From Paramecium tetraurelia (Eukaryota; Ciliophora; Oligohymenophorea; Peniculida; Parameciidae): a stretch of DNA of 64,000 bases. The stretch covers positions 150,510 through 214,509 of the forward strand of contig NW_001799015.1 in assembly GCF_000165425.1 (NCBI RefSeq). The letters are read 5' to 3'. The notes under the pieces are model-generated. The model made no database searches and was not told where the DNA came from. It saw only the letters and a list, made by a program, of their open reading frames with translations. Below, one piece after another: positions 31,363 to 64,000 of this stretch. The position numbers and the translations under genes are program-made. The first letter of the stretch is position 1, and every line of letters starts with the position of its first letter.

Positions 31363-31547
31363 TACTACTAATTTATTAATATCATTTTTAATTCATTATT
31401 AGATTATATTGATAATCATACACACTATTCTCACTTCATTTTAATAATATATAAATGCTTCAAACTCATATCTGTATTATATAATTAAAAAGCTCGTTGC
31501 AAAAAAAGATATTTATTTGTTTTATATTTTATTTATTGCTTTCCATC

Positions 31548-37500: not shown

Positions 37501-40500
37501 TATCAGAATTTAGTAAAGTAAATATCTCTTAGAGTAATTTCAATTTTGCACAGCTTGATTCTGTTTAATGGCAAGACATCTTAATTGATGAACTACCTAG
37601 CATTGAAACTTAGATTTAGAATTTAGGTTTGGATATTCATTTTATTTATATAAAAACAGAAGACCTATTGATGTTTAAAAATAAAGATGTAATAAAATGG
37701 TTCAATTATAAGAATTAGACAACGGCTAAAGCCAAAAACTGTTCTGAATTTATAAATCTTAATCTAAAATATATTTTGATCTCTAAAGATTAATCAAAAA
37801 TAGCTTTGTTTTATAATGATTCATTTACTTTGATTTCTAAGAGCAACTCTAAAATTAATTTCCCTGAAGGATTTTAATTTGAAAAAGCCTATTTTACAAT
37901 TAAAGATGAACTAATTATTGGATCAAAAAATGAAATAATAAAATTAAAAACAGATGTTTAAGATTAGGAAATTGTAATAACTGATAATAATAAAATAAAA
38001 TTGGATAAAATACAAATTAGTAATATGATTTAAATTGCAAGCTATGATAATTATATTATTATTATAAAAGATAAGGAAATGGTCTTCATTAAAGAGAAGG
38101 AAAATCAATATATCTTCTTTACACTCTTGATATAATGTTCGCATCCTGAATGTAGAAATAAACCATTTGATGAAAATAAGTAAGAAGAGGAGATTCCATC
38201 ACAATGTACATAAATAGAATAATTCATTAGTATTTAGATTAGTGATAATTAGAATTTCTTATTAATAGGATTTAAAATAAACATTAATTCTTAAGGGTTT
38301 TTAGTAATTGAAAAATAAAATTTAATAGAGAAACATTAGATTGATAATTAAGAACCTAACAAATAAAAATAATATATTATTACTTCTAAATATATTCAAT
38401 TGGATTTGAAATAGGAGAAAAATTTAAAATTATTTTTCGTTGATGATGATAAATATATCTTATCATTTTCTGGTAATAAAACTACCTTTATGAGATTATG
38501 GAATTATAAGGAGAAAAAGATACTGTCTTGTACTATATTTAACAGTGAAATTCTTTGTGTAACCAAAATAACAAACATATTAATAGCTACTTTGAATAAA
38601 GAATCCATAATCTAAATATGGGATCTTTAAGCATTAATCTAATAATAAAACACAAATCCAAAACCTACTATTACATGTTGCATTTTTTCAAATAATAATA
38701 ACATTATCTCTGGAAACGATGAAGGAATTATATAAATTTGGGATGGAAAAAGAGGAACCAAAATTGGAAAAGACTTATAATATCTTAAAGCATCAGTAAC
38801 CTCTTTAGTGACATATTTTGATCAATACGAAATTTTGATATCTGGGGATGAAAAAGGAAATATCGCTTTTTGGAACCTTTTCAAACATTAATTCATACAT
38901 TCTATTTTTATAATTAGTCCTATTAAATCATTGAATATGATGGAATTTAGCAAAGGCAAATTTTAATTAATCACACATAGTTAACATTATCATTATCTAC
39001 AGTTATGGGCATAAAATTATTAATCTTATTAATTATTTTGTGATCAGCAAAGTAATATCGAAATAGATCAAATGAATTTACAAAAAATAATTCAAATGTT
39101 ATAGGACAAATCAATAAGAAAATCTGCAAAAAAATTTTCTACTTCTTATGTTGGCAAGGAATGTTCTGCATTTGCAATAGGCAAATACACAAATTATTTT
39201 TATTTTGCAGAACCATAATTAAATGGATAAAAATAAGTAATTAAAATTACAATTTATCATGAAGAGTTTAAAGAACTTAAAGATTCCGATACAGTTTAAG
39301 GACAACTTATTACAAATGGAAATTTACAATTAACTTTTGAAAAGGAAGATAGCTCAGAAGTTGTATCAATAATCAAAGAGCTCAATTAATAAAAATTTTT
39401 GGTAGCAACTCAAACCTATATATTTATCATAAAATTTGAAAAATTCTATATTGAAAATAAATTTAATTACAAAGAGGTTGGAAATATTCTAGATGTTTAA
39501 ATTGATGAAGATTTATTATTTTGTTGTGGAAATAATGTTGTAATTACAAATATTAGATCTGGAAAGAATATACCTTGTTCAATAAAAGCAACAAACCAAA
39601 ATGAATAACAAATAGAAATGGTAGGAGAATAAGATCTATTTTGTACTCTACTCTATTATCGAAAGAAAAATACTTTATTTGTAGGCATGACAAATGGTAA
39701 ACTAATTGAATATGATTTATTATAGTGTAAATCTTAAGTCCATAATTGTCATACAGAATAAATAATATACTTATAAATTCATTCAAAGTAAACATAAAAT
39801 GGTTTACAGGATATCTTAGTAACTGCAGGTTAAGATTCCTTCATTAATTTTTGGCCTGTAACCATTTAAGACTTAAAATAATGGAAGCCTTTTGATTAAA
39901 TATAACTTCGATTGGAAGAATAACAAATGAAATAAGCTTTTGGTACTTTGAGTAAGAGAACTACTTTATTTGTTGTTAAAAAGTGGTTTTTATCTTGTTG
40001 CTTATTTCTAAGACCTCTTATGTTATTACAGAATTTCTGATTATCATTCAACAGGTTAATATCATTATAACAATAAGAAATAAGCCTTTTACTAGCTTAA
40101 TTTTAAATAAACTGACCCTTAACAATATTAGCTGTCTAAAACTATGGTATTATAGGAAGCAATAAAGGCTCATTACTAAGAAAATAGTATTTATAAAGCT
40201 GAATTTGTTCTTCTTGACCGTAATAGATCATAAATTATCACTGCTGATAATGACGCAAACATTCTTTTTTGGAATCTTAATGGAGAGCATTCAAATTAAA
40301 TTCAACCTTTCAAAAATATCGAAGCAACTTAAGTTTATGTTAATTTATCTAATAAATTTAATTAACTTATATGCTATTGTTATCACTCTGACTCTCACTC
40401 TCACTCTAATGAGAATTTAATTAGAATTATTCTTTTAGATGATTTAGAAAAACAAATCTCTTATAAAATAAACCTAGGTATTGGTCAACCAAAAGTAAAA

Positions 40501-40863
40501 TAAATTCAATTTTTAAGTCAAGACTTAATTTTGATTTTAACAGATAGTCTATATAACAATATAATTACATATTTATTTGGAGAAATAAACAACAAATAAG
40601 AAATTCAAGATCGATCAGGTAAATCAAATGGAACAGCAGTATTGATACTAGATTAAGGATAAACTTAAGAAAGTATCTTTTTAACTTATGGATAATTTAA
40701 TCAACTTACTTCTTACCACAAAATTAACGACAATTATGCTCCAAAATTCAGATTTGGTGAAGGTATCAAAAGGTTTTCTTGTTGTCATGCCAATATTAGT
40801 AATTCTAAGTTTATTTCTAAGCATGGAATAGATTTAAGCAAAATATTTTCATAAAAGGGTTGA
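31548..40863 (+). CDS. Giant STAND-type NACHT/WD40 protein with an apparent +1 frameshift
   Basis: One frame from ATG 31548 runs without a TGA for about 8.4 kb. The first ~1300 residues are helical, including HeLo-like hydrophobic helices (FLIGAATSFLSFSINDQFLT). A P-loop LIHGQAGSGKSTAARKIEE lies near residue 1342, and Walker B IVIIMDSYDEI near 1422, as in NACHT NTPases. A pentapeptide-like patch (NFFGANLSLSEFSKVNISQS) lies near 1980. WD40 repeats follow (SGNDEGIIQIWDGK, SGDEKGNIAFWNLF). Between about 39943 and 40040 the frame must slip by one base, possibly at AAAAA 39978-39982, to enter the last WD40 segment (IITADNDANILFWNLNGEHS) and stop at TGA 40861. No intron of suitable length was found there. 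Confidence 0.8.
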
Positions 40864-42427
40864 ATGAATATTAATGTATTTATTAAAAGACTTTTTATTT
40901 ATCATAAATTTTAACAAATAAAAATATGATCCTTTTCGGAATAATAAAGTTAATAAATGCAATTTTATTCATTCTTTTACAATATCATATAATTTTATTT
41001 TATTTTCAACATAATAATAAATTTTAAATTTTTCTCCAAAGGCCTGTTGAATCGAAAAGTTTAACAAATATATAAACAATATCTAATTCTGGCGCGATTT
41101 GATATAAGTTTGCCATTTTTAATCTAATTAACTATATGAAGGTAAGAAGGAAATAAAGTATTAAATTCAATCCTATTAATAAATTATTATTCATATAGAG
41201 ATGGTTAACGATAGCGCTATTATATTTCAACTTATTTTCGTATTCAACTTCATTATAAATAAAAAATCAATCCATCAACAAATTCTTTTCTAAGTATATA
41301 AAATAAGAGTGCAACTAATTTAATTTTATTTTTTTTCTATCATCTAGATAAATTATAGCAATCAATTTATTCATTGATCAACAATCAAAGGTATAAAGAT
41401 TATTTATTTCAATAGTAGCAGTGTTGATTTAAAGGAAATACAAAAGCAAATCTAAAATTTATGAAAACCTAAGTATTCTTTCCTATGTTATATTATCATA
41501 ATTTCTAAATATTTAGAGTGTAAGGAAATATTACAATTGGATATTTCTGTTTATCTTTCATGTAAAATGAATTATGATGAAATTATTGCAAGGATGCTAA
41601 CAAAGATTGATGAAGGAAAAATTGATTAGACGAATTAAATATAACAAATTAATTTTCTAATAAAAGGAATTCTCTTGATTTAATGAGATAATCGCCTAAA
41701 ACTAAGCAACAGTATGATAAATGATGAATCAAATTAACGAATAATATATATTAAAAAGTTGATGTTAAAATAAATTATAGTCTAACTAATAATAAGTCCA
41801 CTCTATATAAATTAAAGGTTTCTTAAAAAATTCAAATTTGCAATATAATTTAAAAAACAAGAAAATAGGACTAAAGGAATTAATTAATAAAATAAATAAA
41901 TATTAATAATTTATTACATTACTTTTATCTGTAAAAATATATATACTATAATCAAAAAAATTATTCTTTATTTATTTTATGAATTTGATTACTAAAATTT
42001 ATGTTAGTTAATAACTGCAAGAACTTATTAGCCCAATTAATATAATTTATTTAATTAAATTACTTTAAATTGTTATTAATCCATGAAATAAAAAGTAAAT
42101 GAATTTATTACTTAACTTAAATTTTTGCAAATAATGAATATTTCCATATATTGTTGCATTATAATCCAAAACAATACCAATCGAATTTATGGTATTATCC
42201 ATTCGATTTTTATCTAATATGCAATATCAGCTATGTCAATGGATCTTATAATTCCCTCATAAATTCATACATCAATTGAACTCATTAAATTTCATACATT
42301 TTTCATTTTTTCTTAAAAGACAATAAATATATGAATGAAAATTATAAATAAAACTAGGAAAATAAAATTGGTTTGAATTAATTGGTCATATAATGAAGAA
42401 GTAAAATAGGATTTGAAAAATAATTTA
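40864..42427. other. AT-rich region with decaying coding-like frame
   Basis: No intact gene is seen. From about 41465 one plus-strand frame reads as a plausible helical protein (CKEILQLDISVYL, MNYDEIIARMLTKIDEGK). It meets TGA near 41682 and continues in the same frame to another TGA near 42337. This may be the eroded 5' half of the gene starting at 42428, or unrelated remnant sequence. The stretch 40920-41430 is AT-rich with nothing recognisable. Confidence 0.35.
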
Positions 42428-44233
42428 ATGAAAAAAATAGAGGCTAAGCAGTGTTGTAAACAAGCAAGGTTTCATAAATTGTTAGATGTTGAAAGTGTAA
42501 AGGATCAAATGCTTGTTTCTTATTAATAGGATTTCCAATTATTGAAACATTTTTTCTCAAACTTTGATCCTGACTATGTCGAATACTTAAAGGACATATA
42601 CTCAACAAGTTTTGATGCAATTTACAATACACAGGAAATATTAAAAATAGTTTAGAGCAGACTTAAACACGGAGAGAAAACACTAAAATAGAGTATCAGA
42701 AAGAATTTAATTTAATTGTTATAATTAGAATAGCCAGTTCCAGCATTAGTGTTCTTTTTAAAAATTACACCAACATCATTTGAAATTCATTACAAAGAAG
42801 ATCTGTTATTAATACTTGATACAATGCTTTAGAAATTTAATTTTGATTTAAGATCTGAGATTTACAAAAGTTTGTATGATGCTCTAATAGAAACTACGGA
42901 TGAAGAAATTATATTACTTAGTATAAAGCTATTAAATTCAAAATTTGATTTTACTAATCAATTCAATTAGAAGCAATTTGATATACTAGATTAAATTCAC
43001 AGTTAGATTAGTTTAATTAACTTGCAAGAATCGAAGGATATTATAATATAATTGGTAAGGCATTTCAAAGAATTTCATGAAAAATTAAAATACAAAAGAG
43101 AAAGTCTTGATTAAGTTAAGTCAGAGAAATTTCCTTAATTTGTTTTGAAAGTAGTGCTTATGTTATTAAAAGAACAAGAAATAGTAATCCCAGAATTACT
43201 TACCTTTTTATTCTTTAAAGACACACCCGATAAGAAGAAATGTATTGCTATAAAGTCATAAGTTAAAGAAATTTAGAAAATGTTTGAAATACCAAGAATG
43301 AAAACTTGTTTGAATTTATTAAAGATTGATGACAGTATTTTTTCAAAAGGAGCAATAGGTTATGAGTAAGTTTACTCTATTTGCTAAAAAGAATATCCAA
43401 TATTTCTGAGTTTGAAATTGAATGGAGCTCTAATCCAATATATTGAATTTCTTCATTCAATGACTCATGTAAACACAGATTAATTCATATAAGTCTTTCA
43501 TAATACTGCATTTGAAGACTTCTTAACGTCAATATGGAATATTTGTGGTAAAGAAATCTAATAATTATTGTAAAATATCTTAATAGAGGATTTAGAATAT
43601 GCTAAATATGGTTCAAACATTCTAAGGATTGGCACATTTTTATATAGAATCAAATTCAAACTAGAAAAAAAGATTATAAATAACATAGAAAGAGGTGGAG
43701 ATTTAGAAGAATAATCAATAGAAAGAAGAGCAGATAGTATGAATCCACTTTTTAAAACATTTATCACCTATTTAGTATCAAAATAAATACCCTTTCCATT
43801 ATTACTCAAAACATTGAAAATGGATTACTATAACTTAAAAATTGGATATAGAATAACTGATATGAGAGAATTAGTAGTTGATCCTAAATTTAAAAGTTAT
43901 ATGAAATAATATCATGGAGTAATTTGCAATAAATAGGATCCTGATGAAAATTTAGATCATATAATTACAAGATAATATCCAATAAAAGCAAATAATAATG
44001 GAAAGAAATATGAATTGAATTGGCCAAGATTAATTAAGAAATAAGTTAAATTAATTTTTGAGAATAGAGAATTAGTACAATAATAACTAATAGAAATTCA
44101 TTAGAACTAGAATTTTATGAAGGTTTATAATGAATTAATTAAAATAAATGATAATAATAAAAAGAAAATGTAAACTAAAGAAATATTAATAGAATTGGTT
44201 GCATATATTAAATCCATTCAAAACCAATAATGA
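42428..44233 (+). CDS. Helical protein of unknown function, 601 aa, 3' end inside inverted repeat
   Basis: A single exon from ATG 42428 to TGA 44231-44233. It is entirely helical and Leu/Lys/Glu-rich (FQLLKHFFSNFDPDYVEYLK, LLLILDTMLQKFNFDLRSEI, GTFLYRIKFKLEKKIINN), like a HEAT or GAP-type helical fold, but no signature motif is visible. The start is the first in-frame ATG after a TGA, and the upstream region has protein-like sequence, so the N-terminus may be incomplete. The last 114 codons (from 43892) lie in the left inverted-repeat arm and recur as an orphan fragment at 61542-61883. The stop overlaps the convergent secreted-protein gene by 16 bp. Confidence 0.6.
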
Positions 44234-45069
44234 TTCATTATTTTATTTATTATATACATAATAGTAAATTATTATACAAAATTATATAAGTAATCAAATA
44301 GGTTATTCATACTTAGGAAACTTTATATATAATAATTATAAATTACATGGTAATCATCTAAACAGGTTTAATCTGTAGTATATGTCTATTTGATTCCTCC
44401 TTTAAATTATGGGTCTTTGATTTACACTTGAACACCACTAACTAAGATATAAATGGATTTTATTTTGAAAGGTATTTATCTAATAGATGTAGTTTGATTT
44501 CCTTAACAAACCCTCCATAATTGTCCCTAATAATTACATTCACTATAAAAATCTATACAGTGATTAATAAGTTATAATTTGATATCTCTAATTCCCCATG
44601 ATTCTAATATTAGAATGTTTAGTTTACCTATATCGTCAGCTTATAAATTATCAACTAATGAAAAGGTAATATAGTTTTATCCTTATGGTAACTAATAGAA
44701 ATACGATCTATAATCCAATAAATCTGGGTATAGATTTTAACACACATTAATTCCCTCAAAAGGTCCATGAGTAATTCTATCAATTTCTTAGCCATCTTTA
44801 TAAATAAAAACCGATTCGTAGTCCCAACTATCGAATTTAGCCAAAGTGAATGATAATTTCATTAATTTTTGTGATGGACTCCAAAATGTTTTGGTAATTC
44901 TATGTCCTCCTGTAAATGCACCAATATAATTTATTCCTTAACATTCAGTCACATAATTGCCATTAGTCCAACCATTATTAATACATTCACTTCCAGTAGG
45001 TTCTACACAACCCTTATAAATTAAAAGAGGCTCTATAAATAAGATTTTTATAAAGGAAATCATTGTCAT
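44218..45069 (-). CDS. Secreted protein, left-arm copy
   Basis: Mirror copy of the gene at 60706-61557, read on the minus strand from ATG 45067-45069 to TGA 44218-44220. Every segment compared is identical to the right copy, so both should encode the same protein. It has a short hydrophobic start (MTMISFIKILFIEPLLI), Cys-containing lumenal sequence (GCVEPTGSECINNGW) and the motif KFDSWDYESVFIYKDGQEID typical of ciliate secreted or surface proteins. A 24-nt in-phase intron (GTAAAC...ATATTAG in the gene sense) probably removes KLNILILE. The stop overlaps the stop of the convergent 601-aa gene by 16 bp. Confidence 0.75.
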
Positions 45070-45627
45070 CTCAAAAATTTATATCAACTTTTATTTATAA
45101 ATAGATCATTTTGAAAAATAAATATATATTAGATGTAAAAAATATAAAAATTTATTCCCAATATTTTATGAAACTATAAATGTAGATTCTAAAATAATAA
45201 GGTTTTGAATAATATCTATGGATTTAAATTATTTATATGATTTTATTGAATACATTCATCATTTGAAGTACATGTACTTAATTTATATAAATTTTGGATC
45301 AAATGATTTTCATTAGAAGAATAGTAGCAATATTTTACTTAAGTCTAATAAATAATGAAATTAATAGAGAATGGTTGAATATCAATTATTTAAGAATAAA
45401 TTATATTCTCTTCTAAATTAGAATATCCAAGTTTAAATTTAGATTCTAAAACTGTTAATTTATTATTATTGATAATAAAATTACTGATTTATCAAAAAAT
45501 TGATAGAACAAATTATTGAATATATATATCTATTTAAATAATAAATGTTATTATTTAGATGTTTTATTTATTATTTTAAGTTCAATGTAAACTTTTAAGG
45601 TAGCGTACTTCTTAGATTAGAAAATGA
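45070..45627. other. AT-rich spacer inside left repeat arm
   Basis: The left-arm equivalent of 60148-60705. No frame is coding-like and no motif is seen. It appears identical to the right-arm spacer, so non-coding sequence is conserved between the arms as well as the genes. Confidence 0.6.
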
Positions 45628-46172
45628 TCAAGTTGGTTGTTACTAAAACTCATCCTAAAATGATAAAACTTATTTCATATTATGGTGATGACCAAGTTGG
45701 ATTAAGATTAAGTGCATTATTTAGGCAAATAATAGCATCTACATAGTTTTTGGTCTTAATTAATGAACAGCCTTTATAATAATAGAACATATATATCAAC
45801 CTTTATTGTAATGACCAAATGGATTATTAGGATCAGATTAAATCGCTTTCTCAAAACAAATGAATGCTTCTTCATATTTTTTCAATTGTTTCAGTGCTAC
45901 TCCTTTATTATTAAATGATCCTTTTATTTATTTAAAATATTATATTGAATCTTTAAATATTAAATATCTTGAGATGTTATCTATTTATATTATTATTAAT
46001 TTAAATTAGATACTATTCATATATTAATAATCTCTGCATTAATTAACTTTTTAATGATCTTTTAATTATTATTCATCAAAGTAACAATCTTATTCTTAAC
46101 ATTCTAAATTTAAACACATTCCTATCATTTTACTATCTATTCCTATTAATTAATCATATTAATAAATTTCAT
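45628..46172 (-). pseudogene. TPR gene pseudogene, left-arm copy with internal deletions
   Basis: A truncated copy of the TPR gene at 58593-60147. A 25-bp deletion after codon 12, between two TAGATAGTA repeats still visible in the right copy, causes a frameshift and immediate TGA. A second deletion removes the end of the Cys-rich leader. A third of about 0.8 kb joins ...AAAAGGATCA to TTTAATAATAAAGG, removing introns 1-5 and most TPR units. A fourth of about 60 bp lies near the 3' end. The last TPR unit (GVALKQLKKYEEAFICFEKA) is still readable. It cannot encode a functional protein. Confidence 0.85.
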
Positions 46173-46230
46173 TACAAATTAATTCACAATTTATATTTAA
46201 TATCTTTCTCAGAAATAATCAAAAAGATAA

Positions 46231-46597
46231 TCTTAAGGTGTATATAAAAATGATTACTTTATCAACAGATAATATAGAGAATATATTTTGTTATTATTTG
46301 CTATATTATTAATAATATAGGTATAGTTAACAAATAACTTGCGTTATGAGTATAATTTAATTTCATTTTAGATGAATTAATTTAAAAGTTATCATCTGTT
46401 TTGAAATTAGTAATGAATAAGTTTGGAGGATGGAATCTTTTGTTAAAATGTTTATTATGCATTAAATGAACTGTTTTAATGGCTACACAAAAAATTCAGT
46501 TTAAAACCTAAAGATTGAGGATTTCTTTTGGTTATTAATTATTCAATTCGTTTTACTTTTTTGTAAAATTTATTAATTAATACTATATAAGAAATTT
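46231..46597. other. AT-rich spacer upstream of the giant membrane-protein gene
   Basis: This lies just inside the left repeat arm. No coding frame or repeat is recognised. It should hold the promoter of the gene starting at 46598. Confidence 0.4.
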
Positions 46598-49500
46598 ATG
46601 GGCTTTAGAGCTGTTTTAATAATTGCGACATGGTAAGAGATGAAAATATATTAGTATTTATTAAGGGATTAGCGATTGTGTTTTTGATATCATAACAAAA
46701 CCCGATACAGAATAAAGAATAATTGAATAAGACTTAGTATATTCAGGATCGAAAAATTATGGTTGGGGAGTTTGGACAAAATATGAGGCAGGATATGGGA
46801 GTCCGGAAGAATTAACTAAAACAATATCAACTATGCATGTGTTGACTGAAAAGTATTCTGAGCGAATAGTGCTGTCCTATTTCATTGAATTAGATAGGGA
46901 TAAATTAATATTTACTCACCAACTATTAATATAGCATGGAGGAATAATGCAAATTAGGGAGTTGAAGACGGATGCAGCGACAGTAAACAAGAAATGGGTC
47001 TTTTTCTATTTTTGTTATAATGAAAACTTGAAGTCTTACAGTATGTTCCTTTATGCAGAAGATGATACGTTTCATGTGGGAATGTCAACAGGGGGACCTT
47101 TTGGTGTAGATGATTTGGTGAAAGAATATTATTTAGGCCAAATCATTAATGTAAAAATTAAGAATATAAATAGTTAATAAATCCATTCGATTCATCAATA
47201 AATTACAATTTAAGTGTGTTTATCGGCTAGATTAGCGATATGGACTTAAGATATGGGATCTCCAGTTATTACGGAGATATAGACTCCTTTTTAGCTAGTA
47301 TAGGATCAACAGTTTGTGTAAAGAAGTATGAGTGTTCTGGGACAACCAAGACAATAAGTTTCGACAATCTTCTTCTCAATGATTAAAGTGCTCGTGTCTT
47401 ATCGAAATTGAAATATGAAAACCATCGTTTCCTCATAAGTGGATGGATCAAAGTGTCTCCGGTTCCTTTGTATCAACAAAGAACCTTAGCTCTATTCAGG
47501 ATAACTTTGAAGGGTAAATACGAAGACGATAGGTATTATGGGGATCGAGCTTTGTTTTGGCAATATTTGCAAAATGCAGATCAACCGGATTCATCAGGAT
47601 TGATTGTGACCACTTATCATGAGAATACCCCTTTTATCCCTTATGAAACCAATTATGATGATATAATGAGTTATTTGAGTTCATATTACAGCAAGGCAAT
47701 AACTGAATGGCATTGGTTTATATATGAAGAAGGAAGAACTGAAAATGTTTATAATATATAGAATACTATTTATTGGGGAAATGGAGGTCGCAACATAAGA
47801 ACAGATGAAAATCATTTATAAAAAACTCATTTGAGCGAGTCAACTTTATACATGACTCTGGGAGGAGATAAGTTCTATAGTTTTTTTGGTCAAATCTAAT
47901 AGTTTTAGTTCCAATATTGCCTTGTTGATGACAACGAATACTTTTTAAGTAAGGAGATTCTGATTTCATAATAGAATGTCATTACAGTTGTTAAAGTTGT
48001 TTTGGTCCAGCTGAAATTCATTGTATTACCTGTCCTGATGAAGATACTACGAATAGAGCCTACAATCCAAGTCAGAGTAGTTGTGGATGCAAAAACTCCT
48101 ATGTTGAGAATGGAGATAAGCAATGCGTTAGTAATGAATTCCGATAGCATTCTTAGAAACCCAAGAGTACTTTTAGGATATCACTATTCTTGAGGGGGAG
48201 ATAGTCAATTCGATTGCTTGTGGCTTAGGTTAGTTTTATGTTTAGTTTGGCTAAAAGTCATATTGTGCTGATTGCCCAGGAAACAGAGAGCCAGATTTTC
48301 TGAGCAGAAGGAAATTGTTTTGTGTTGATTGTCTCAATTAATAGTATCATTGGTAATCAAATCCCACATGCACATAAGACTATGAATAACTGATTACAAG
48401 TTAAACGAGTGCATATTAAAAGAAGGCCAGAATACCTATAGATTACGAGTATTTCCTTATAAATTTCAATGCTGAAATGAACAAGATAGAAATAGAACTA
48501 TGTGAAGGTTGTTTGGGAGAGACAACTGCGAAATCTAACTATATTTTGAAGTAAAAATTGGATAAAGAAATAAAAGTGGAATGCAAAACGTGTTATTTTA
48601 TTATTGATGGAGAATGTATTAATGTTAATAGCAATTGTGATTCTTGTGATTAAGATAAGTGTGTGGAATGCTCATTAGGTTATGCACTTTATTAAAATGA
48701 ATGTTATAAATGCCCAGTTCTATGTCCAAATGATTGTATGTTTGATGGATCCAAATTTGGGTGTTTGAAATGTGACCTCGGTTATTACTTAGACAAAGTA
48801 AATAATGAGTGTCTGTAATGTGGGGCCAATTGTATAATATGTGAGCCTGGAATACCTATGGATGGAACTTCTGTTGAAATGAAGTGTTTTAAATGCATTG
48901 ATGACGTGGACTACTTTATTGATGCTGATCAGATCAATTGCAAGCTGAAAACTATGCCTCATTGCATCTATCAATATCAAGAGTTCTATTTTCGACATTA
49001 ATTTTCGAATGATAGTTACCCGTTTCATCTTTAAACAAGTTGGGATTTCAATTTTTCAAAGCCTTCAGCATATAGTTACTAGAGATGTGCACTTTGTGAA
49101 AAAGGTTATATTTATAGTTTTTACGAATACGGATCGGGTGTTGACAAGTGCATGCTAAAGTCAGAAATAACAGATGCAGATATCCCACACTTTAATACTC
49201 TTGACATTGCTCCTGAACCTGAAGATGATCACTTCTAAATTATGTTGTATCATGAACAAACAATCAGTAGGGGGTATTTCTAGTATTTTGTAATGATGCT
49301 TGGAGATTATATGACAGCAACATTAGATGGGAAGTTATATAATATTCCTGTGATGACTAACATCGATAGAAAAGTCAAAAAGAGTCTGGATGTAACACCC
49401 TAAAAAGAGAAAGATCTATTACAAGAGTGTGCTACTAAAAATTGCAGGTATTGTATCAAGAATTATGTGTGGTTTATGGAATATTGTATGAGTTGCAATC

Positions 49501-52500
49501 AGGGTTATTATGCAGACATGCTCTCTGGTTAATGTTATTAATGTTTGGCTAAGTTGCATTGTCGAACCTGTCAATAACAACATAAAGTATATAAGGATGG
49601 GTGGAAATGGAAAATCAGATCCTATTTTCGTGCAAGAACTTGTGCAAACTTCTGTTTTACTAGTTTTAGTCTCAAGTGTGCCAGCACAAATGCAGATGAT
49701 TATGAAGTCTATTGCACTGATTGCGAAGATGGATATGAAATCTATTAAGAAAAATGCATTCCCAAGTGCAGTTGTTCTAAATGCATTGTGCAGAATGGTC
49801 AAAATGTTTGTGTTGAATGTCCTTCATCTTTGATTAATACAAATTAGCCCATTCAAACACTAATCAACGACAAATGCACTGATTGTCCTGCCAATTGTGC
49901 TTTGTGTAGAGAATTAAATGACGATGAGATCATGTTAATCAATCCTTACTTTAACCCACAATATAGTCAACTTGCCATCTATTCCAAATCCTGTATCAAG
50001 GGCTATGAACCTGACAAAACATTGCTTCAGTACCAGTACATCTATCGTGATCCCATCTTAAGTACTCAGATCTTATGCAAACAATACTAAAAATGCTACT
50101 AATATTTGGAACAACAATATACGATCTATTGTAGTCAAGTTGATTTTGAGAATGAACTCGATTCGGCTACTAACAGTAATACATTTCTCTACAAAAACAT
50201 GGCTTTATCTCAATTATTCTCATCAACTCATTTTTCTATTGAATCTGAAAAGCTTTTCGATCAGCTCAATAAGAAATCCATCAAATCAGCAAAGTATATT
50301 CTGAATTTTAGATACTACAATGATGAGCCTTGCATTATACCTCCCAATTCTGTGATCTTTTCAAATCTTAGAAAGAACATATTTACTCTCCAATAGTTAG
50401 AGATTATTTTCAATGGAGACATCACAAAGCAGACTTCCATTCAAGGCACCTTATCTCTTTAAGATTTCTCTAAGATCACAATATAGAATTTTTAATTTGT
50501 TTAATCATCTAAACAAACCCAAATTGCTATTTCTTAACTTGATAGAGTCACTTTAAATCTCGAAAACATCATCATACAGGATTCAGATAATTATAAATTT
50601 TAATTCTAAATCAAAGATCCTCAAATTATTTCGATCAACAAGTTTAAAATTATTAATTCTAAAATTGTGGACACTTAAGGGATTGTTGCCTACTCATTTA
50701 GCTAATAAATTACTGATAGATTTGAATTATAAGCCAATGATATCACACTTATGAATTCCTAATTTACAAACACCTAAATAATCATTCAAAATTTAGATGA
50801 CAATTGCAACAATCAAATACATCAAATCACAAAGATAAAATCTATAAAAAATACTTTCACTACATCATCACTATTCGAAACCTACTTTCCCTTATCATAG
50901 AGATAATCTAGCTTCATAATCAAAGAGTTTTCTGTTGATGGAGACACACTAACTGACTCCAGTTACGCTATATTACAAGGTGCTCTTGATGTATTGTTGC
51001 AAGACTTGACTATTCAAAACAGTGTCACTTATGGAGGAACAAAACTATTTCAATTGCCTCTATTTGTTATTAAGAACTTCTACTTCCTAGATAATAGTCT
51101 ATAAAGTGATGAGAATAGAGTAATCACAAATCTAATAAATATCGTATATTCTGATTTGGATTCTATCACTTCAAACATCTTAACTTTTGACAATATCAAA
51201 TTTGAGAATAATTACTATGTTGGTAGTAAGGGTTTCATAGAAATAATTCAAAGCAGTAACTTTAGATTGTTGGAACTGTAAATTACTGATATTACATTGA
51301 TCAAAAATGATATGATATTAGATAGGACAACTGCTTAGAGTGCCATTACTCTAGAAAACTCTACAATTTACTTGGATGTAACAGAATTACAATTGAAAAA
51401 TGTACTTGTTAAGAGAAATCTAAATTTGCCTGAATTCACTATAAAGAATGCCAACAAGGTTACCATAACCAAATTCACAGGATAGTTGATTAAATAATTT
51501 AACATACTCCATCCTTCAAAATCCTGTCTATCTTCTGTAGATGAAGTCCGACAAACAACTATGTTGTTCTTCTTTAATATCCTGAACATAGAAATGTCGA
51601 ATATCTTTTTGTCCAATCTTACATCTATAAATTTACCTTTGATTTTAATAAAATCAATTGAAAAGTAAAACAAAAGACAATTAGAAAATATCACTCTATA
51701 AAATTGTTAATTTACAGAGAATATTCTTCTAATTACCAAAACGTCAGAGTAGTAAGGAGTATTAGCCATAATATCTGAACAAGAACAAACTATCGTATTT
51801 TCGAAAATACAGTCAGAAAGGAATATACAACATAGTTATATCGAAGACATAGCCTTTATTTCTTCCTCGACAATTTTATTAATCACTCCATATTCAAATG
51901 TAGAGATGAGGGATTCATTATTTTAAAAGAATATCGTTACAAATGGAGAGAATTCCAATTTAATTTTGGTTGGTAAATAAGTGTCATTGCTGGATACGTA
52001 GTTTATAAATCAGAATAATATAGAGTTTGAGTCCTTTGCGAAAAATTTAAATTGGGGATTCTCAAATACTGATTAAGTGTACTTAGAAAATTTGATGGCT
52101 TCATTTCCAATCTATTCCAAAGGAGGAGCTGGATACATCAAAGGTTCAGAACTCTTATTGGATAACGTGTATGTGAACAACACTCAAGCATTATTTGGAG
52201 GAGGTTTCTATTTAATACCATAATCTTTGGGTTCGTTGAAGTTGATAAACTCTTAATTTTTAAATTGCAAGACAGTAACATCAAATTCAGAGAGATCTCA
52301 GGGAGGCACTTTATATGTGGACTCTTCCTAATCATAGTTGGATCTCTTAATAAAGAACACTACAGTAACTAATTCATATAGTCGAAATGAAGGAGGATGC
52401 ATTTATATTGAACCATCTAGAGTGACTAGTTCCATCAAATTTTAAGATTTTACAATTTAGAACATCTATTCCTTGTTGACTCCTTTCTTGAGAATACCTG

Positions 52501-55500
52501 TAAGTTTCACCAGTTCTTCGCTAATACTGAAGATTTAATTTTCTAATGTCCAAATCACTAATGCTTACAGTGGGTATTTAGGTTATTTAGAGGAAATTGT
52601 GAATTTGAAACAAACTGAAATATAGAATCAAAAAAATAACTATTTGATCTCCATAGATTAAGCAAATGTTTCAATGCAAAATTGTTTGTATAAGAATATC
52701 TTTAATTATGGTTTGTTGAATTGTCAAGATTGCCAATAAGTACTATTTACAAATGTCGAGGTCAAAAATTTCACAATGTTATCAGAAGCAATCATGAACA
52801 TCATACTGAATAAAAGTAATTATACATATTTTTACATTAGAGTATTAAAGTGCAATTTCATTTATCGAGATCGCTGTGGAGAATGTAGTAGAATTTAATG
52901 GGGTAGTAAGTATTCCAAATGAAAAGGAAGAGATTCTTGTCAATACGGTTTATAAATGTTATTCGAACTATCAGATTCCTAAGACTATAGATACATTTTA
53001 TACTGAATAGAGGAAAAAAATACTCTCGCTCCATAATTTCTATGAGATAATTAATGGGAAATAGCCCTTGATTACAATTCTGAAGATAGATTAAGTGTCT
53101 ATATTGCATTATCTATAATTTTTGAATTTCAATATGGAGCAGAATTATTGTTCAAGTTGTGAAAACAGCATCTTTCAAATTACTAATATTGACAAGGCAG
53201 ACTAAAAAAATTTGATTTACATCACAGATTCTACATTCAAAAACAATACATGTGGTAAATTTGGCTGTGTTGTGGTATCATAGAAGGATGCAAAATCATT
53301 TCAAACATAAAATTCAAATCGAATTTTAGCATCTGATTCAGTGATTGGTAATATCAATGCAGAAGTCAAAATTTTAGACACTGTTTTCATAGAGAATACA
53401 GCAACATATGGCGGAGCTTTGTTGATCTCCTAAATCAATACCTTAATCAACAATTGTATTTTTAATCAAAATGCAGCAATGTAATCTGGAGGAGCCATCT
53501 ATTATTAACATTCTCATGATTCCTAATTACATCTATATAATTCCTTGATCACGTACAATAGTGCCAACGTTGGAGGGGGATTGTACATGGGGAAGTATCA
53601 GATGAATGATCCCAAGACCTTGAATAATTATTTGAGAAATAATAAGGCCAAGAGTTTTGGAGACAATATGGCTGACAATCCTTCTTAATTGACTGCACAA
53701 GTAGGAACCTAATTGCTGTTAACTAAGAGAATCATTAATAATAATCAATAAATTATAGACCAAATCTCTTTCAGTAATTACACTATAGGTTCATAGAATT
53801 ACAATTACATTATGGTTCCAAGTGGACAGATAATATCCTCGTATAAATTCTTTGATGAAAATTCTTAAAGCTTTATCAACTACAATTTCAGTTTAAGAAT
53901 AGTCCCTTTGAATAAACAATATGACAGAATCAAAAACCTAACTGGAACTGAATGCACTATTAAAAGTCGTGAAATCTTAGATTCAAAAGAAGGGGAATTC
54001 AATTCAAGTCTAATAAATTTGAAGAGTGTCACTTTCAATTAGACTTCCTAAGATTACAATTTGGATTCTCTTATTGTTTACTTCAATCCAGATTAGAATA
54101 CAAAAGGGTATTTGCAATTAGAGATCTCTTGCAATTCAGTCTAAATTAGTATGTATTCGTCAGAACCTCCTTATAAATTCTCTTCTTTTCTTACTAATTA
54201 TTCTCTAAGAATCGACTTATAAGCATTCCCTTGTCAAAGAGGAGAGTACAAAAAACCAGATGGCACTTGTGTTCTGTGTGATGCTCAATTTGATCAGTAT
54301 AATATACAGGCAGGAGAGTAGTGTTAGATTAAGAACTAATTGACTATGGATGAAGTGAATGCAGCAAGAGTCAAACTAAAACCATTTTATTGGAGACCTT
54401 ATGAATACAGTCATACTATTGAATACTGTTAGAATTTACCTGAGAATTGTGTGGGTGGTTGGAATCCTGGGAATGATCTGTGTATTAGTGCACATATTGG
54501 TGCCCTCTGTGAATAATGTGACATCTATAATGTAAGAGGAAGTGGGAAGTTCTCTACAAGCGCTTTATACAAATGTGGAAGTTGTGAAAATATAGGCGAC
54601 AACACCATTAAGATTGGGCTTATCAGTTTATGGACCATGATCTCAATTTTAATCTCAGTCAAAGGCACTGTTGATACAGCAAATAAGATAGACCATGAGA
54701 ATAAATTATCTAAATTGAGAATCTCTGCCAAGAATCCAAAGGCAGGTTTTGGTGGAGTGTTAATCAAAGTGTTGACCAACTATCTTCAAATTGTTGGAGC
54801 CATATCAACATTCTAATTGTAATTACCAAGTGTTTTGCAATCGAGTATTCGATCTGTGAGCAATCCTGTTGAATCAATGAGTTTTTCATTGGATTGTTTC
54901 TTGATCACCATATCAAACATCAACATCATATACTTTAGAATGATCTGGGCTCTCATTATGCCTGTCATATACATTATCAGCTTTTTAGTTCTATATACTA
55001 TCGCAGTTGTGATCAATATCACTAAGGCCGATAAAAGTGCTATTACAACAAGTGCCATATATCTATTCACATATTTATAGCCTACACTCTTGGGAGGGTT
55101 CATTTCCTTATTGTCATTTAGGAAGATCTCAGACATCTATTGGATTCAAGGGAATGTAGCCTACAGATATGATACTCAAACCCACTTTAATTGGATGATA
55201 ACTTTTCTTTTGCCTGCTACTCTTTGTCTTTCTCTAGTGATCCCAATTTATATGTTTTTGAGTCTATATAAGAGAAGAGAAAAGCTGGCAGACGGAGAGA
55301 CCAGAAGAATTTGGGGTTACTTGTATAATGAATATTCCCAGAAGGCCTATTTTTGGGAGATCGTCAAGATTCTGGAAAAGGGATTTATGATTGTCTTCTT
55401 GACTTTTTACGAGGACTTGATCATCATTAAGGCAGCCATGATCTTCATTATAACCTTCCTCTATTCAATATTGACTAAGAACTTTAAGCCTTACAAATTA

Positions 55501-56079
55501 CAATATTTGAATTTCATCGATGAGATCAGTACATTAGTTTGTGAAACTTCAATTGTACTAGGAATGACTATCTATTCAGCTTCAAATTCAGATAATCAGG
55601 AAATAATTTGGCCTTTCTACATCATTTTGATAAGCATCAATACAATCTTTATCGTCATCATCCTTTGGGAAATCGTACTTGCATAATTGGAGGATTAACA
55701 AGAGAACATAGACAAGGTTAGGGAGAAGGTTAATTAGAAATACCCAGAATTATAAAAAAAGAATTGGCTTTTCCGTAGATTACTTACAAATAGGGGACAG
55801 CAGTAAAAGAGAGTGAGAGAGAGATTTTAGAAGATCAGACAATACTTAATGAAAATAGTAAGGGCTAATCCAGGAAGATATAAGATGCCAAGTCTTTAAA
55901 TATTTGATGTTATTTCGAATGAAAAAAACAAAGATTAGAATGTAATGGGGTATTTATCATATTAGAACTCTCCATCAGCTTCAGACAAGAGAGATACCTA
56001 AAATTATATTGATTAAATAAGCAAGGCAAAGGTCTACCCAGAATTTATCATTATTGATAAGGTAGAATCGGATTAATGA
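46598..56079 (+). CDS. Giant Cys-rich, beta-helix, multi-pass membrane protein, 3119 aa
   Basis: There are six exons; introns are 46633-46654 (22), 47151-47173 (23), 47949-47974 (26), 48131-48156 (26) and 52816-52840 (25), all ending TAG. The exons sum to 3120 codons. It starts with a hydrophobic leader (MGFRAVLIIATC). A Cys-rich furin/EGF-like region follows (CHYSCQSCFGPAEIHCITC, CDSCDQDKCVECSLGYALYQ). Then comes a very long beta-helix-like region with GG repeats (SKGGAGYIKG, RNEGGCIYIE, QSGGAIYYQH, NVGGGLYMGK). The last ~500 residues hold eight or nine membrane segments (MIWALIMPVIYIISFLVLYT, WPFYIILISINTIFIVIIL), then a basic tail. This layout suggests a surface receptor or adhesin. It lies wholly between the inverted-repeat arms. 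Confidence 0.88.
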
Positions 56080-56208
56080 TTTGGTTCACAACTAGATTTG
56101 CGAATAAAGATAATTAATGAATAAATTATATCAAATTAATTATTATTTCTTCGTGAACCCAATATCTAAAATAATTGTCAGAAATGCTTCAATTAATATT
56201 AATTATAT

Positions 56209-58412
56209 ATGATACTTTTTTTATGTTGGGTATCTCTTTTGCCTCTTATTTATTCTTACGTAGATCTAGAAACTAGCTTTACTAACAATAGATTCACAGC
56301 TGCTGACAAAAATGGTATTAATAGTCATAACTAGGCTGGACCTTCGTTTATATGATAGATGCAGGTAATGCTGCTACAGTAACAGGTATGACAGGCAATA
56401 GAGATACTGATTTAGAAAAAAGCTAATGTTTGACAAGTGATGGATCTTGCACTGATCCAAATGCGGTTTAATACTTTGGCTTAGGTTTGCTAGGTGAATT
56501 TGCTGGGGCTTTTAAGGTATTTGAGAATTTGCCTCCTCATTGTTAAATTTATATATCTGTTGATTTGGCTATGTACTCAATTACCATATATTAGAAAGGG
56601 GAGAGAAATCTCAACATCTAGATTATTAGTATTGTTGGACATTTTACCTGTGGCAGCTTACACAATCAATCCCAGTGGTGATACTGACTTTTATGAAGCA
56701 GTTACATTATAAGGAGTTGCCTCTCATAGTTATCCCTTTGTATTGATTAGCTTTCATACCGCATTCTATGTGCTTCCTAAGTCTATGGGTATTCGCAATT
56801 TAAAAATCAAATATACGCCATGTCCTCCTGGATGCTTAATTTGCACACTGATGGATGTTTAGGTGCAATGTTCCCAATGGGTTCTGGGCTATGAGGGATT
56901 AGGTTTGACTTCTAAGCTTCTTAGTAATGATGGTTGGCAAATAACCAACTCCAAGGAATAATTTAAGAATCTGAATCAAGATGTAAACACAATCTCCTAT
57001 GTATATTGCTTGTCTCCAGGACTTGGTCCATTTACTCAAAATTAAGATGTTCAAATAGATCTGTTTTTGGATCCACATTATGAAGTTCGATTCGTTTTCT
57101 ACTTGATATCAATATATACAGATACTAGATTCCCACCTATGATTGTCGTTCGCTTAGATGGACTGGAAGTGTATTCATTAAATATCAAAACTACAATTCC
57201 TCTAATCAATTTCTGTTAATGGGAAGCCTATAATTATGTAACTAGAAAAGAAGAAAAGTTGACAAGAAGAGTAGACTTTAATTACAAAACCACAAAACGT
57301 AAGCTCAATCTTTCTCTCAGAACCTAAACTATTACAGTACCAATTATTTATGATCAAACCATTTTAAAAGATTTTTAAGTTTACATCAAGAAATGCTATT
57401 CAGAACCGAACTTCCCTTGCGATGAATGCATAGGCCCTCTAAAGAATGACTGTGTACAAAAGGCTAAAGTAACCAACTTTTAATAGATTGCTGCCAATGA
57501 TTTCTCAACAGGTCACGGATGGTAAGTAATGCTACCAGAAACTGGTGGTGTTTAAATTTGTAATGGAAGATACTATTTTGGCTTGGACTCAACCAAAATT
57601 ACCACCTCATACATTTAAAAGTCTTTTTCGTTTAATAATCCTCACACTGATATTGAAATATCATTTATCATTCAAAAAATAGATAAGCACACCACTGAGA
57701 AGTTTCAAATCTATTTAGATGACGCCTTGATTGAAGAAATCCCGTTTTCAACCTTTGATAGTCAGTTTAGTTATTGTGGTACTAGTGAGAATGATGGCTA
57801 ACTGTTTTATCAAAAGAAGATTGCTCATACCAGATCATATTCAGTCATTTAAATGAAATCAACTTAAACCACTACTGATGGTATTAATTTCAATAATATT
57901 CAGGCCTTTTTGGAATATACAATTTCAAACTCAAAGTTAGAAATGGATAGGAATCTTAAGATTTGTATAATGATTTATCCAATATCCCTATTGTTGGTGC
58001 AACTTAATGGAATAAATGGATAGTTACTTAATCCTCTAATGACCTTAAATAGTATGTCTGTGATAGTTCAGTTACGTTGTTAGGTAAACTCTAGCCAGAA
58101 ATGTAAATCAGAAGATTTGTCTAAAATATAGCTGTTCATACATAAATTAGGATTCAGTTCACTATTTATTTATTCACAAGTAGCTTTAATAATAAAATTT
58201 TGACTTTAATCCTTAATAATAAAACTATTTGGGAATAAACTATTAATTGGTACAATTAAAAGGCTTGCGATGCCAATTTAGATACTTTTGTTGTCAAAGG
58301 AGATATCGTAATGGATCACGAATTAGATCACGCTTTCTTTGTATGGAGCAGTAGTGTCTCAGATCTAACTGCTTCATGGGGAATTGCAGACTTTAAATTA
58401 TTTATTTCATGA
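56209..58412 (+). CDS. Secreted or surface protein with repeated beta-sandwich-like domains
   Basis: About 712 residues. Introns are 56315-56334 (20 nt), probably 56573-56594 (22 nt), and 57881-57903 (23 nt, CAG end). An alternative second intron of 28 nt in 56631-56660 also keeps the frame, so residues near 100-130 are uncertain. There is a signal peptide (MILFLCWVSLLPLIYS). Repeating segments alternate hydrophobic strands with YLDD/RLDGLEVYS-type motifs (KFQIYLDDALIEE) and Cys pairs (PPGCLICTLMD, FPCDECIG). No membrane anchor is visible. It shares the W/F-strand style of the secreted gene in the repeat arms and may belong to the same ciliate family. It lies between the repeat arms. Confidence 0.72.
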
Positions 58413-58592
58413 ATTATTTATTAGTAAAAATCATCAATAATTTCATCTTTCTTATTACTTATTAGAATTAAGATGAGTTAAAAAGATAGTCCATCTTTCA
58501 TTTTGATCAGTCTCAAATATTTCAAATGAGGGAAAGAACTTTTTGATTATTTTGTAGAAAGATATTAAATATAAATTGTGAATTAATTTGTA

Positions 58593-60147
58593 ATGAAATC
58601 TATTAATATGATTAATTAATAGGAATAGATAGTATAGTAATTTGAGAGAGTAGATAGTAAAATGATAGGAATGTGTTTAAATTTAGAATGTTAAGAATAA
58701 GATTGTTACTTTAATGAATAATAATTAAGAGATCATTAAAAAGTTAATTAATGCAGAGATTATTGTAAAATGATTGATGAAATTGAATTAATATTAGAAT
58801 ACTTAATATATGAACTTAAATAATAATAATTGATTCAAACTGATTAATAAATAGAACTAGCAAATTATCAACCAATATTATCTAATTTAAATTAATAATA
58901 ATATAAATTGATAACATCTCAAGATATTTAATATTTAAAGATTCAATATAATATTTTAAATAAACAAAAGGATCAAAATAAAATCATACAATATTGTTAT
59001 TTTATTTATTTAATATTTCTTAGGTTTATAATAAGGAATTCAATTAATTGAATAACAGAATTGGCATAAAGCATTATTATACTTTACTAAGATATCAAAA
59101 TAATAATAAAAAAATGATATTGCATTATTCTATTTAGGTATTAAATTCATTTAAAATTAGGTGTAATATTATTAGAATTAAATGAATGTTCTAAATCAGG
59201 AAAAATGATTGAAAAATTAAAAACAGAATATCCAACCTTTTTTGAAAATTAAATTACAACAATGACAAAAGACTAATCAATTAATCAAAATAATTTAGCT
59301 TAGTTATTATTAATAGGTATATTATTAATTATTATTATTAATAGGACATTCCTTATTTCAAACTAAAGAATATCATTCAGCAATTGATATAAGTGATAGG
59401 ATCTTATAAATTGATAACGATAATATTAATGGTTTAATAGGAAAAAGTAATAATTCATATACAATTAAGTTGGATCATTAATAATGTTATAATAATTTGA
59501 ATAAGCTATTCAAGTTTAAAATAATTGTTTAAAAACTAACATAAACAAAAGTGTGTTAATACTTTTTTAAGGTATTTATAATTAATACATTATTATTAAA
59601 TAGGATTACTTCTAACTAAATAAGGATAATATAATTAAGCAATGACATTTTTTAATCATGCAATTTAAATAGATCCAAAATTTGCTGATGCTTATTACCT
59701 TATAGCAAACTTATATCTTGATTAAAAAAAATTCGAAGATGCAATCATTTATTTTGATAAAACAATTGATCTTGATCCATATCATGCTGAAGCATTTAAT
59801 AATAAAGGAGTAGCACTGAAACAATTGAAAAAATATGAAGAAGCATTCATTTGTTTTGAGAAAGCTATTTAATCTGATCCTAATAATCCATTTGGTCATT
59901 ACAATAAAGGTTGATATATATATTCTATTATTATAAAGGCTGTTCATTAATTAAAACCAAAAACTATGTAGATGCTATTATTTGCCTAAATAATGCACTT
60001 AATCTTAATCCAACTTGTTCATCACCATAATATGAAATAGGTTTATCATTTTATTATCTAATTAATAGGAGTGTGTTTAAAAGCCCTAAATTAGATAAAA
60101 AAGACTATCATCAATTATAGGATGAGGATATGTAACACCCAACTTGA
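58593..60147 (+). CDS. TPR-repeat protein with N-terminal Cys/His-rich segment
   Basis: This encodes 463 residues in seven exons. Introns are 58996-59023 (28), 59138-59160 (23), 59317-59344 (28), 59447-59469 (23, AAG), 59572-59603 (32) and 59910-59938 (29, AAG). Every junction is phase 1 and the exons sum to 464 codons. The N-terminus has a Cys/His cluster (CLNLECQEQDC...CRDYC) followed by Gln-rich coiled coil. Then come about seven TPR units, for example ALLYFTKIS, YHSAIDISDRILQIDNDNIN, AMTFFNHAIQIDPKFADAYY, AIIYFDKTIDLDPYHAEAFN and AFICFEKAIQSDPNN. A protein-interaction scaffold is likely. ATG 58593 is the first in frame; ATG 58608 is also possible. Confidence 0.85.
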
Positions 60148-60705
60148 TCATTTTCTAATCTAAGAAGTACGCTACCTTTAAAGTTTACATTGAACTTAAA
60201 ATAATAAATAAAACATCTAAATAATAACATTTATTATTTAAATAGATATATATATTCAATAATTTGTTCTATCAATTTTTTGATAAATCAGTAATTTTAT
60301 TATCAATAATAATAAATTAACAGTTTTAGAATCTAAATTTAAACTTGGATATTCTAATTTAGAAGAGAATATAATTTATTCTTAAATAATTGATATTCAA
60401 CCATTCTCTATTAATTTCATTATTTATTAGACTTAAGTAAAATATTGCTACTATTCTTCTAATGAAAATCATTTGATCCAAAATTTATATAAATTAAGTA
60501 CATGTACTTCAAATGATGAATGTATTCAATAAAATCATATAAATAATTTAAATCCATAGATATTATTCAAAACCTTATTATTTTAGAATCTACATTTATA
60601 GTTTCATAAAATATTGGGAATAAATTTTTATATTTTTTACATCTAATATATATTTATTTTTCAAAATGATCTATTTATAAATAAAAGTTGATATAAATTT
60701 TTGAG
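60148..60705. other. AT-rich spacer inside right repeat arm
   Basis: A 558-bp spacer between the TPR and secreted-protein genes. No coding-like frame, tRNA or tandem repeat is seen. It should contain the secreted-protein promoter. Confidence 0.5.
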
Positions 60706-61557
60706 ATGACAATGATTTCCTTTATAAAAATCTTATTTATAGAGCCTCTTTTAATTTATAAGGGTTGTGTAGAACCTACTGGAAGTGAATGTATTAATAA
60801 TGGTTGGACTAATGGCAATTATGTGACTGAATGTTAAGGAATAAATTATATTGGTGCATTTACAGGAGGACATAGAATTACCAAAACATTTTGGAGTCCA
60901 TCACAAAAATTAATGAAATTATCATTCACTTTGGCTAAATTCGATAGTTGGGACTACGAATCGGTTTTTATTTATAAAGATGGCTAAGAAATTGATAGAA
61001 TTACTCATGGACCTTTTGAGGGAATTAATGTGTGTTAAAATCTATACCCAGATTTATTGGATTATAGATCGTATTTCTATTAGTTACCATAAGGATAAAA
61101 CTATATTACCTTTTCATTAGTTGATAATTTATAAGCTGACGATATAGGTAAACTAAACATTCTAATATTAGAATCATGGGGAATTAGAGATATCAAATTA
61201 TAACTTATTAATCACTGTATAGATTTTTATAGTGAATGTAATTATTAGGGACAATTATGGAGGGTTTGTTAAGGAAATCAAACTACATCTATTAGATAAA
61301 TACCTTTCAAAATAAAATCCATTTATATCTTAGTTAGTGGTGTTCAAGTGTAAATCAAAGACCCATAATTTAAAGGAGGAATCAAATAGACATATACTAC
61401 AGATTAAACCTGTTTAGATGATTACCATGTAATTTATAATTATTATATATAAAGTTTCCTAAGTATGAATAACCTATTTGATTACTTATATAATTTTGTA
61501 TAATAATTTACTATTATGTATATAATAAATAAAATAATGAATCATTATTGGTTTTGA
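60706..61557 (+). CDS. Secreted protein, right-arm copy
   Basis: From ATG 60706 to TGA 61555-61557, about 275 residues after removal of a 24-nt intron at about 61147-61170 (GTAAAC...ATATTAG). If the intron is retained the frame stays open and adds eight residues. The N-terminus is hydrophobic (MTMISFIKILFIEPLLIYKG). The mature part has Cys (CVEPTGSEC, CQNLYPD, INHCIDFYSECNYQGQLWRVC) and the strand motif KFDSWDYESVFIYKDGQE. The C-terminal ~50 residues are Tyr/Phe-rich. A secreted or surface-bound role is inferred. The identical copy is at 44218-45069. Confidence 0.75.
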
Positions 61558-61883
61558 ATGGATTTAATATATGCAACCAATTCTATTAATATTTCTTTAG
61601 TTTACATTTTCTTTTTATTATTATCATTTATTTTAATTAATTCATTATAAACCTTCATAAAATTCTAGTTCTAATGAATTTCTATTAGTTATTATTGTAC
61701 TAATTCTCTATTCTCAAAAATTAATTTAACTTATTTCTTAATTAATCTTGGCCAATTCAATTCATATTTCTTTCCATTATTATTTGCTTTTATTGGATAT
61801 TATCTTGTAATTATATGATCTAAATTTTCATCAGGATCCTATTTATTGCAAATTACTCCATGATATTATTTCATATAACTTTT
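61542..61883 (-). pseudogene. Orphan 3' fragment of the 601-aa gene
   Basis: Reverse-strand copy of 43892-44233, the last 114 codons of the helical-protein gene. There is no 5' part and no start, because the repeat ends at 61883. The reading frame is intact (KSYMKQYHGVICNKQDPDEN) but should be dead. It overlaps the 3' end of the secreted-protein gene by 16 bp, as in the left arm. Confidence 0.8.
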
Positions 61884-61978
61884 TGAAATACACGGTGTTG
61901 TTCTATTATTTTAACATTTCCATAAAAAATTAATTATATGGTATAATGTGTATTAGTTAAATCGCAATTAAATTATAA

Positions 61979-63302: not shown

Positions 63303-64000
63303 TCAGCCAAGTGAAAATTTAGCACTCCTTTCAAACCATGCTTTTGCATACTACGAATCATTATCATCTAAACAGACCTACTAATTAAGCTATTGCTAAA
63401 CTTTTTCAAGTTCCTGCAATTTATTTTAATACTCTTTAATATCAACATTTTGATTCTTGTGAATCCATTCTATTGTTTCATTTACAATCAATTAATACTA
63501 TGACTTTTCAATATTAGAGAATTTAAGGTTAAACTTTTCATTATTAATTGTATTTCTAATAAGATATATAGTAGATTCCAGATTATTCTTTTCTTCAATT
63601 GTACTTTTTATCATTTTGTCTTCATCTTCTAATTTTTCAGCATCCAGAATATGTTTTTCAATATATTCCCTCGTTAATCCCTTATAAAAGTTAGCTATAA
63701 TTATGCTATTACTATTCTTTGAACATAGATCTTAGGCAGTCATAGTAAGAGTATAATCCGAATCAATCTCAGATGTTATCAAAATTTCAGGAACTCCTTT
63801 GAGAGCTGGAAAAATACCAGTTAAATTAAATTGTTCTAAAAAAAGACAATCTTTAGTCAAGTATCTATAACCTAAATAGATTTTAATTTGGATTTCAGAT
63901 TGATAGTCATTCTTGGTGGTGAAAATTTGTGCTTTCTTTGTTGGAATCGTTGTATTTCTTGCTATTAAAGTAGTCATTAACCCTCCAAGAGAACGAGGGT
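63303..64000 (-). CDS. Divergent HSP70, C-terminal part (partial, runs off the window)
   Basis: The minus-strand frame is open from the window edge to TGA 63303-63305. The substrate-binding domain is recognisable: LMTTLIARNTTIPTKKAQIF, IQIKIYLGYRYL, FNLTGIFPALKGVPEILIT, and the later helical lid (GLTREYIEKHILDAEKLEDE). Compared with typical HSP70, four residues are missing just before this (SLG then GLMT, where SLG-IETA-GGVMT is usual). The lid is Gln/Lys-rich, and no EEVD or ER-retention signal is at the end (SAKFSLG). This is a derived paralogue or an eroding copy. The ATPase domain lies outside the window. Confidence 0.75.

Follow-up and report, generated by a model that had tools for sequence, protein, structure and literature searches.

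Gene conversion is described as common between the paralogs left by whole-genome duplication (WGD) in Paramecium (PMC10195154, PMC11334263), and recent single-gene duplications are described as very rare in P. aurelia genomes, with a median of 28 per genome (PMC10195154). Inversions are also on record in the cited parts of two papers: segmental ones between P. aurelia genomes (PMC11334263) and one on surface-antigen chromosomes, seen when two species were compared (PMC9788069). Analysis of the final 64,000 bases of contig C62 (214,509 bp), a stretch referred to here as the window and ending at the contig end, revealed a large inverted repeat whose two arms surround a 12-kb middle segment. The locus adds one more case to a known type of event and is a fairly ordinary duplication. 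With a probability of roughly 0.7, it arose by segmental inverted duplication in a Paramecium-type macronuclear chromosome, followed by decay of a TPR-repeat gene in the left arm and, at a later stage, by gene conversion in the outer portion of the arms.

Self-comparison of the window by BLAST revealed an outer block that pairs 43892-45664 with 61883-60110 at 99.5% identity, with the sum of the paired coordinates constant at 105775, and three inner blocks (45656-45917 with 60053-59793, 45916-46017 with 58975-58874, and 46026-46226 with 58764-58539). The repeat is far beyond chance, because only one further self-match was found in the window at an E value of ≤1e-5, and this match covers 56 bp with 82% identity. 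Both the inverted repeat with this coordinate sum and its continuation inward as broken blocks had been claimed in a preliminary description of this DNA and were recovered here. The left arm comprises positions 43892-46226 on the forward strand, and the right arm comprises positions 58539-61883 on the reverse strand (3,345 bp). Alignment of the reverse-complemented right arm to the left arm, the check proposed in the preliminary description, yielded an identical core of 1,704 bp with no difference (43892-45595, forward strand, and its counterpart 60180-61883, reverse strand), followed by 20 mismatches and five gaps. The perfect identity previously put at about 1.74 kb was present, but that length was slightly too long. 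The first mismatch is located at 45596/60179, and the next five are clustered within 12 bp (45637-45648), adjoining a 66-bp gap. All 20 mismatches in the 2,334 aligned bases of the arm fall in the inner 630 aligned bp. The length differences of more than 1 bp amount to 66, 819, 61, 40, and 25 bp; all five segments are retained in the right arm only and shorten the left arm relative to it, and the left arm has a single extra base.

The change in divergence within this one homologous pair is abrupt (0/1704 versus 20/630 mismatches; Fisher's exact test, p = 3e-12), which suggests gene conversion, and the identical part makes up about half of the copied block. Setting aside the five clustered mismatches leaves 15/625 in the inner part. 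A recent event, gene conversion, and an assembly artefact had been named earlier as candidate causes of the near-identity. This choice of candidates was sound, and gene conversion acting on an older duplication fits best, because the inner blocks are about 2 to 3% diverged and the outer 1,704 bp are not. A mutation rate of about 2.4e-11 per site per cell division has been reported for P. biaurelia and P. sexaurelia (PMC6027866). By our own arithmetic, which assumes neutrality and the validity of this rate here, the mismatch-free 1,704 bp place the last homogenization within roughly 4e7 divisions (95%), and the inner divergence of 2.4 to 3.2% would require about 5-7e8 divisions. Since the age bound reaches about 4e7 divisions, the identity of the core need not be very recent.

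The native side of the duplication was deduced from gene A, a 601-amino-acid single-exon model (42428-44233, forward strand) that spans the outer edge of the left arm. The right arm carries an orphan tail of this gene, namely its final 113 codons with the stop (61542-61883, reverse strand). Searches of the 69-Mb, 231-contig assembly, in which only the best candidates were scored and very common words were skipped, revealed gene A relatives on C48 (68% amino acid identity) and C37 (70%) that align over their full length, across the left arm edge. Apart from gene A itself, the neighborhoods of these relatives showed no synteny with the window. Because gene A is full length on the left and only its tail is present on the right, the left site is native, at least for the outer edge; the native site on the left and the cut gene at the edge of the right-arm block together mark a duplication. 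For the arms as a whole, the sequence comparison makes the left arm look like the native donor copy and the right arm like an inserted copy.

Genes in the arms were predicted with a gene finder trained on nine long frames from the same window, with introns restricted to 18-36 nucleotides (nt). At default penalties, the finder missed gene B and the TPR-repeat gene, and relaxed penalties were used for both. Gene B lies whole in each arm, with identical DNA in the left (44218-45105, reverse strand) and right (60670-61557, forward strand) copies. It is a 295-codon stop-to-stop frame with the first ATG at 45069 in the left copy, or, in the relaxed gene model, a gene of 249 amino acids with one short intron. 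Its upstream spacer (45106-45595) lies within the identical core. Gene B is a member of a dispersed family, for which the genome search revealed 37 matched stretches, two of them being the arm copies. The TPR-repeat gene of the right arm (58593-59914, forward strand) was predicted as a five-exon, 407-amino-acid model at one of three finder settings and as two pieces of 247 and 90 amino acids at the other two; it contains three TPR matched stretches (E = 1.4e-28), and by eye, TPR-like sequence perhaps extends to about 60100. Its exon 1 (58593-58995, forward strand) contains a Cys/His-rich stretch that resembles a zinc-binding motif by eye. The left copy of this gene (45640-46226, reverse strand) is decayed: all five gaps are located in it, so that it is without 25, 40, 61, 819, and 66 bp, and its longest model has 110 amino acids. 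A multi-gene block is thus present in two copies of opposite orientation, which identifies the repeat as an inverted segmental duplication.

Analysis of the right-arm junctions revealed a 10-bp direct repeat, one copy of which lies at the outer junction (61877-61886, reverse strand) and the other at the inner junction (58537-58546, reverse strand). In a control with 6,000 random pairs drawn per set, from which pairs less than 100 bp apart were discarded, at least 10 bp were shared in 9 of 5,894 pairs from low-GC parts and in 1 of 5,988 pairs from the whole window. The shared sequence is shorter at the left-arm junctions (5 bp) and in the crosswise junction pairs (8 and 7 bp). The 10-bp repeat lends moderate support to an insertion at the right by short-match repair. 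The right arm stands between the predicted stop of gene D (58412) and the predicted start of a WD40 gene (61946), and without the block, the gap between these genes would be about 190 bp. We infer the following course of events, which would have taken place in the germline. From its native position beside gene A, a block of about 3.3 kb, containing the gene A tail, all of gene B, and the TPR-repeat gene, would have been copied, inverted, into the narrow interval that separates gene D from the WD40 gene, at a distance of about 12 kb. Break repair guided by short sequence matches at the two ends is the probable mechanism. On the left, the TPR copy, now redundant, would then have decayed through deletions, and ectopic gene conversion between the arms would later have restored the identity of the outer 1,704 bp.

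No third near-identical copy of an arm was found in the assembly among the best-scoring candidates, the others reaching 68 to 77%. The best DNA matches outside the arms reached 69-77% for the left arm (four places), 72-74% for the right TPR part (four places on C24), and 68% for the right flank (one place). A dispersed repeat was ruled out, the near-identical copies found being two. Elsewhere in the window, positions 1-18668 show reverse synteny with C15:148117-132114, with 79-94% DNA identity in the longer matches. Identity of 100% over 1.7 kb stands out, because the duplicates on C15 reach 79-94%. The C15 match was absent among the listed matches of 18669-38668, and the proteins predicted on C15:112000-131999 match none of the predicted proteins of the window. 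Colinear, older-looking matches of the 1-18668 block were observed on C167 and C76, continuing to about 27.9 kb. Some of the assembly listings, including those for window positions 3-18668 and 18669-38668, omit the self match and hold one unscored candidate each, and positions 38669-43891 were not used as a separate genome query.

One of the five segments found only in the right arm, the 66-bp segment at 60054-60119, is typical in length of internal eliminated sequences, for which a size peak of 65-66 bp, a minimum of 26 bp, and the end consensus TAYAGYNR have been described (PMC3464196). The segment has TA on both sides, as did 7% of random 65-bp segments; by eye, one of its ends is 1 letter off the consensus and the other 3 letters off. 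Two of the five gaps (66 and 25 bp) can be placed by eye between TA dinucleotides, a weak excess over the 7-9% expected for each from simulation, and the 25-bp gap is below the published minimum. Given a further noncanonical intron, inspection by eye also allows the 66-bp segment to be read as coding sequence close to the end of the TPR-repeat gene. The 66-bp difference may represent a retained germline segment or a deletion.

The middle segment contains two predicted genes on the forward strand, gene C (46640-56079; 3,106-amino-acid model with 6 exons) and gene D (56352-58412; 668-amino-acid model with 3 exons). Gene C has a Cys-rich part, one subthreshold Chlam_PMP repeat match, and, by eye, a hydrophobic C-terminal part. 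According to the preliminary description, the middle segment holds a large Cys-rich gene and a further gene, and in outline, this content was confirmed; its labels "secreted" and "multi-pass" were judged by eye only. Any relationship between genes B and D is weak at most (E = 0.001 in one comparison). Genes A, B, and D had no significant Pfam match, and 0 matches to a described RNA family at the gathering score were obtained in the window. Upstream of the left arm, a single-exon 2,830-amino-acid model (31548-40040, forward strand) shows a NACHT match (PF05729) just above the cutoff, followed by sub-cutoff WD40-type propeller matches; stretches related to this gene (68-71%) occur on C211, C67, and C35. 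At 63303-63998 on the reverse strand lies the C-terminal part of a divergent Hsp70 gene, truncated by the contig end, with 44% identity to a 646-amino-acid Hsp70 model on C224.

Long reading frames were seen only when TAA and TAG were read as glutamine, and introns of 19-35 nt join the frames into gene models. The start of C62 consists of mixed C4A2/C3A3 telomere repeats. The telomere pattern gave 12 matches versus 7 for a reversed control, and 7 of the 12 lie at most about 110 bp from a contig end. From the genetic code, the short introns, and the telomere repeats together, we take this to be a Paramecium-type macronuclear (somatic) genome. The right end of C62 is without telomere; among 10 other contig ends, two had telomere repeats, two had N, and six had neither.

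Several observations weigh against a duplication followed by gene conversion. The identical core could be the consensus of a collapsed repeat, and the contig ends without telomere 2.1 kb beyond the right arm. Because the finder splits the TPR-repeat gene at two of the three settings, the right copy, too, may be damaged. The junction repeat constitutes moderate evidence only, because it is A-rich and some of its letters belong to the block itself. The main competing explanation, an old and real duplication in which copies differing by about 2% were merged into one consensus and then placed twice, would account for the abrupt drop from identity to 2-3% divergence, and another contig end (L055; C29:272563-272762) resembles low-quality sequence with long C and G runs, a hint on assembly quality. 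Such an artefact is nevertheless unlikely, though it deserves some weight, given that the inner blocks, which are alike enough to be merged, stayed separate and that the window holds no N. A simple fold-back chimera of the assembly was considered unlikely, because five gaps and 20 substitutions separate the inner parts of the arms. The five mismatches within 12 bp next to the 66-bp gap would suit a very recent inverted duplication without conversion, the inner part of which was damaged during copying by error-prone repair with template switching. Most of the other inner mismatches are, however, spread over about 600 bp, beyond the edges of the gaps, which makes this course of events improbable. 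Gene conversion on an older duplication fits the distribution of differences better.

The arrangement of the arms also raises the possibility of recombination between them. Identical inverted arms of 1.7 kb would be a good substrate for homologous recombination, and an invertible switch, in which such recombination flips the 12-kb middle and alters expression or antigen type, was considered. The inner arm edges are intergenic, however, lying 413 bp before the predicted ATG of gene C and 126 bp after the predicted stop of gene D. Each arm has a complete gene B together with its upstream DNA, and the two copies of the gene A tail do not differ. Since the edges are intergenic and gene B and the gene A tail are duplicated, a flip would change no predicted gene or adjacent upstream DNA, and by this comparison of the arm edges with predicted genes, no promoter-gene or gene-gene junction would be altered by inversion. 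No recombinase match was obtained in the frames scanned with Pfam. The junction repeat of the right arm (10 bp) is longer than the crosswise ones and weakly favors the present orientation as the original one. These results make a switch very improbable, and the antigenic or allelic switching suggested in the preliminary description is unsupported, since the inner edges are crossed by no predicted gene and gene B is accompanied by its upstream spacer in both arms. A standing inversion isomerism, in which the arms exchange sequence continually, with conversion between them going on alongside, and the many macronuclear copies of the chromosome hold both orientations of the 12-kb middle, is doubtful. 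Inverted arms around cargo genes would also be expected if a large mobile element had the arms as its terminal inverted repeats, and germline Tc1/mariner elements of Paramecium may have long inverted ends according to the cited part of PMC3464196. This interpretation is close to refuted: the left outer edge lies inside the conserved gene A, the outer flanks differ without a target-site duplication (by eye), no transposase was among the Pfam matches of the scanned frames, and no other arm copy was found among the best-scoring assembly candidates.

In searches of open-licence PubMed Central, no report was recognized as describing this locus or an inverted duplication or inversion switch in the Paramecium macronucleus. 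With a duplication followed by conversion as the preferred explanation, the locus provides a usable, well-preserved worked example in which one can read the native side, the insertion junctions, how one copy decayed, and a tract of probable conversion. It illustrates how rare duplicates form and are homogenized and leaves the picture of the field unchanged. Invertible DNA switches flanked by inverted repeats also have inverted arms around a middle segment, but no gene or promoter here sits at a junction where inversion would change its use, and no recombinase was seen in the scanned frames. Periodic cysteines, a subtelomeric position, and GPI anchoring characterize Paramecium surface antigen genes. 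Intrachromosomal duplicates of these genes, as presented in the cited part of PMC9788069, are likewise young, located on one macronuclear chromosome, and of non-WGD origin; in contrast, the block described here is mixed, one of its genes being truncated to a tail and another decayed. The recent segmental duplications and gene conversion in Paramecium treated in the cited parts of PMC3464196, PMC10195154, and PMC11334263 resemble this locus in that a near-identical duplicate stands amid well-diverged duplicates and a step in divergence is a sign of conversion. The published conversion concerns WGD pairs, whereas the copies here are inverted, span a few kilobases, and lie close together on one contig.

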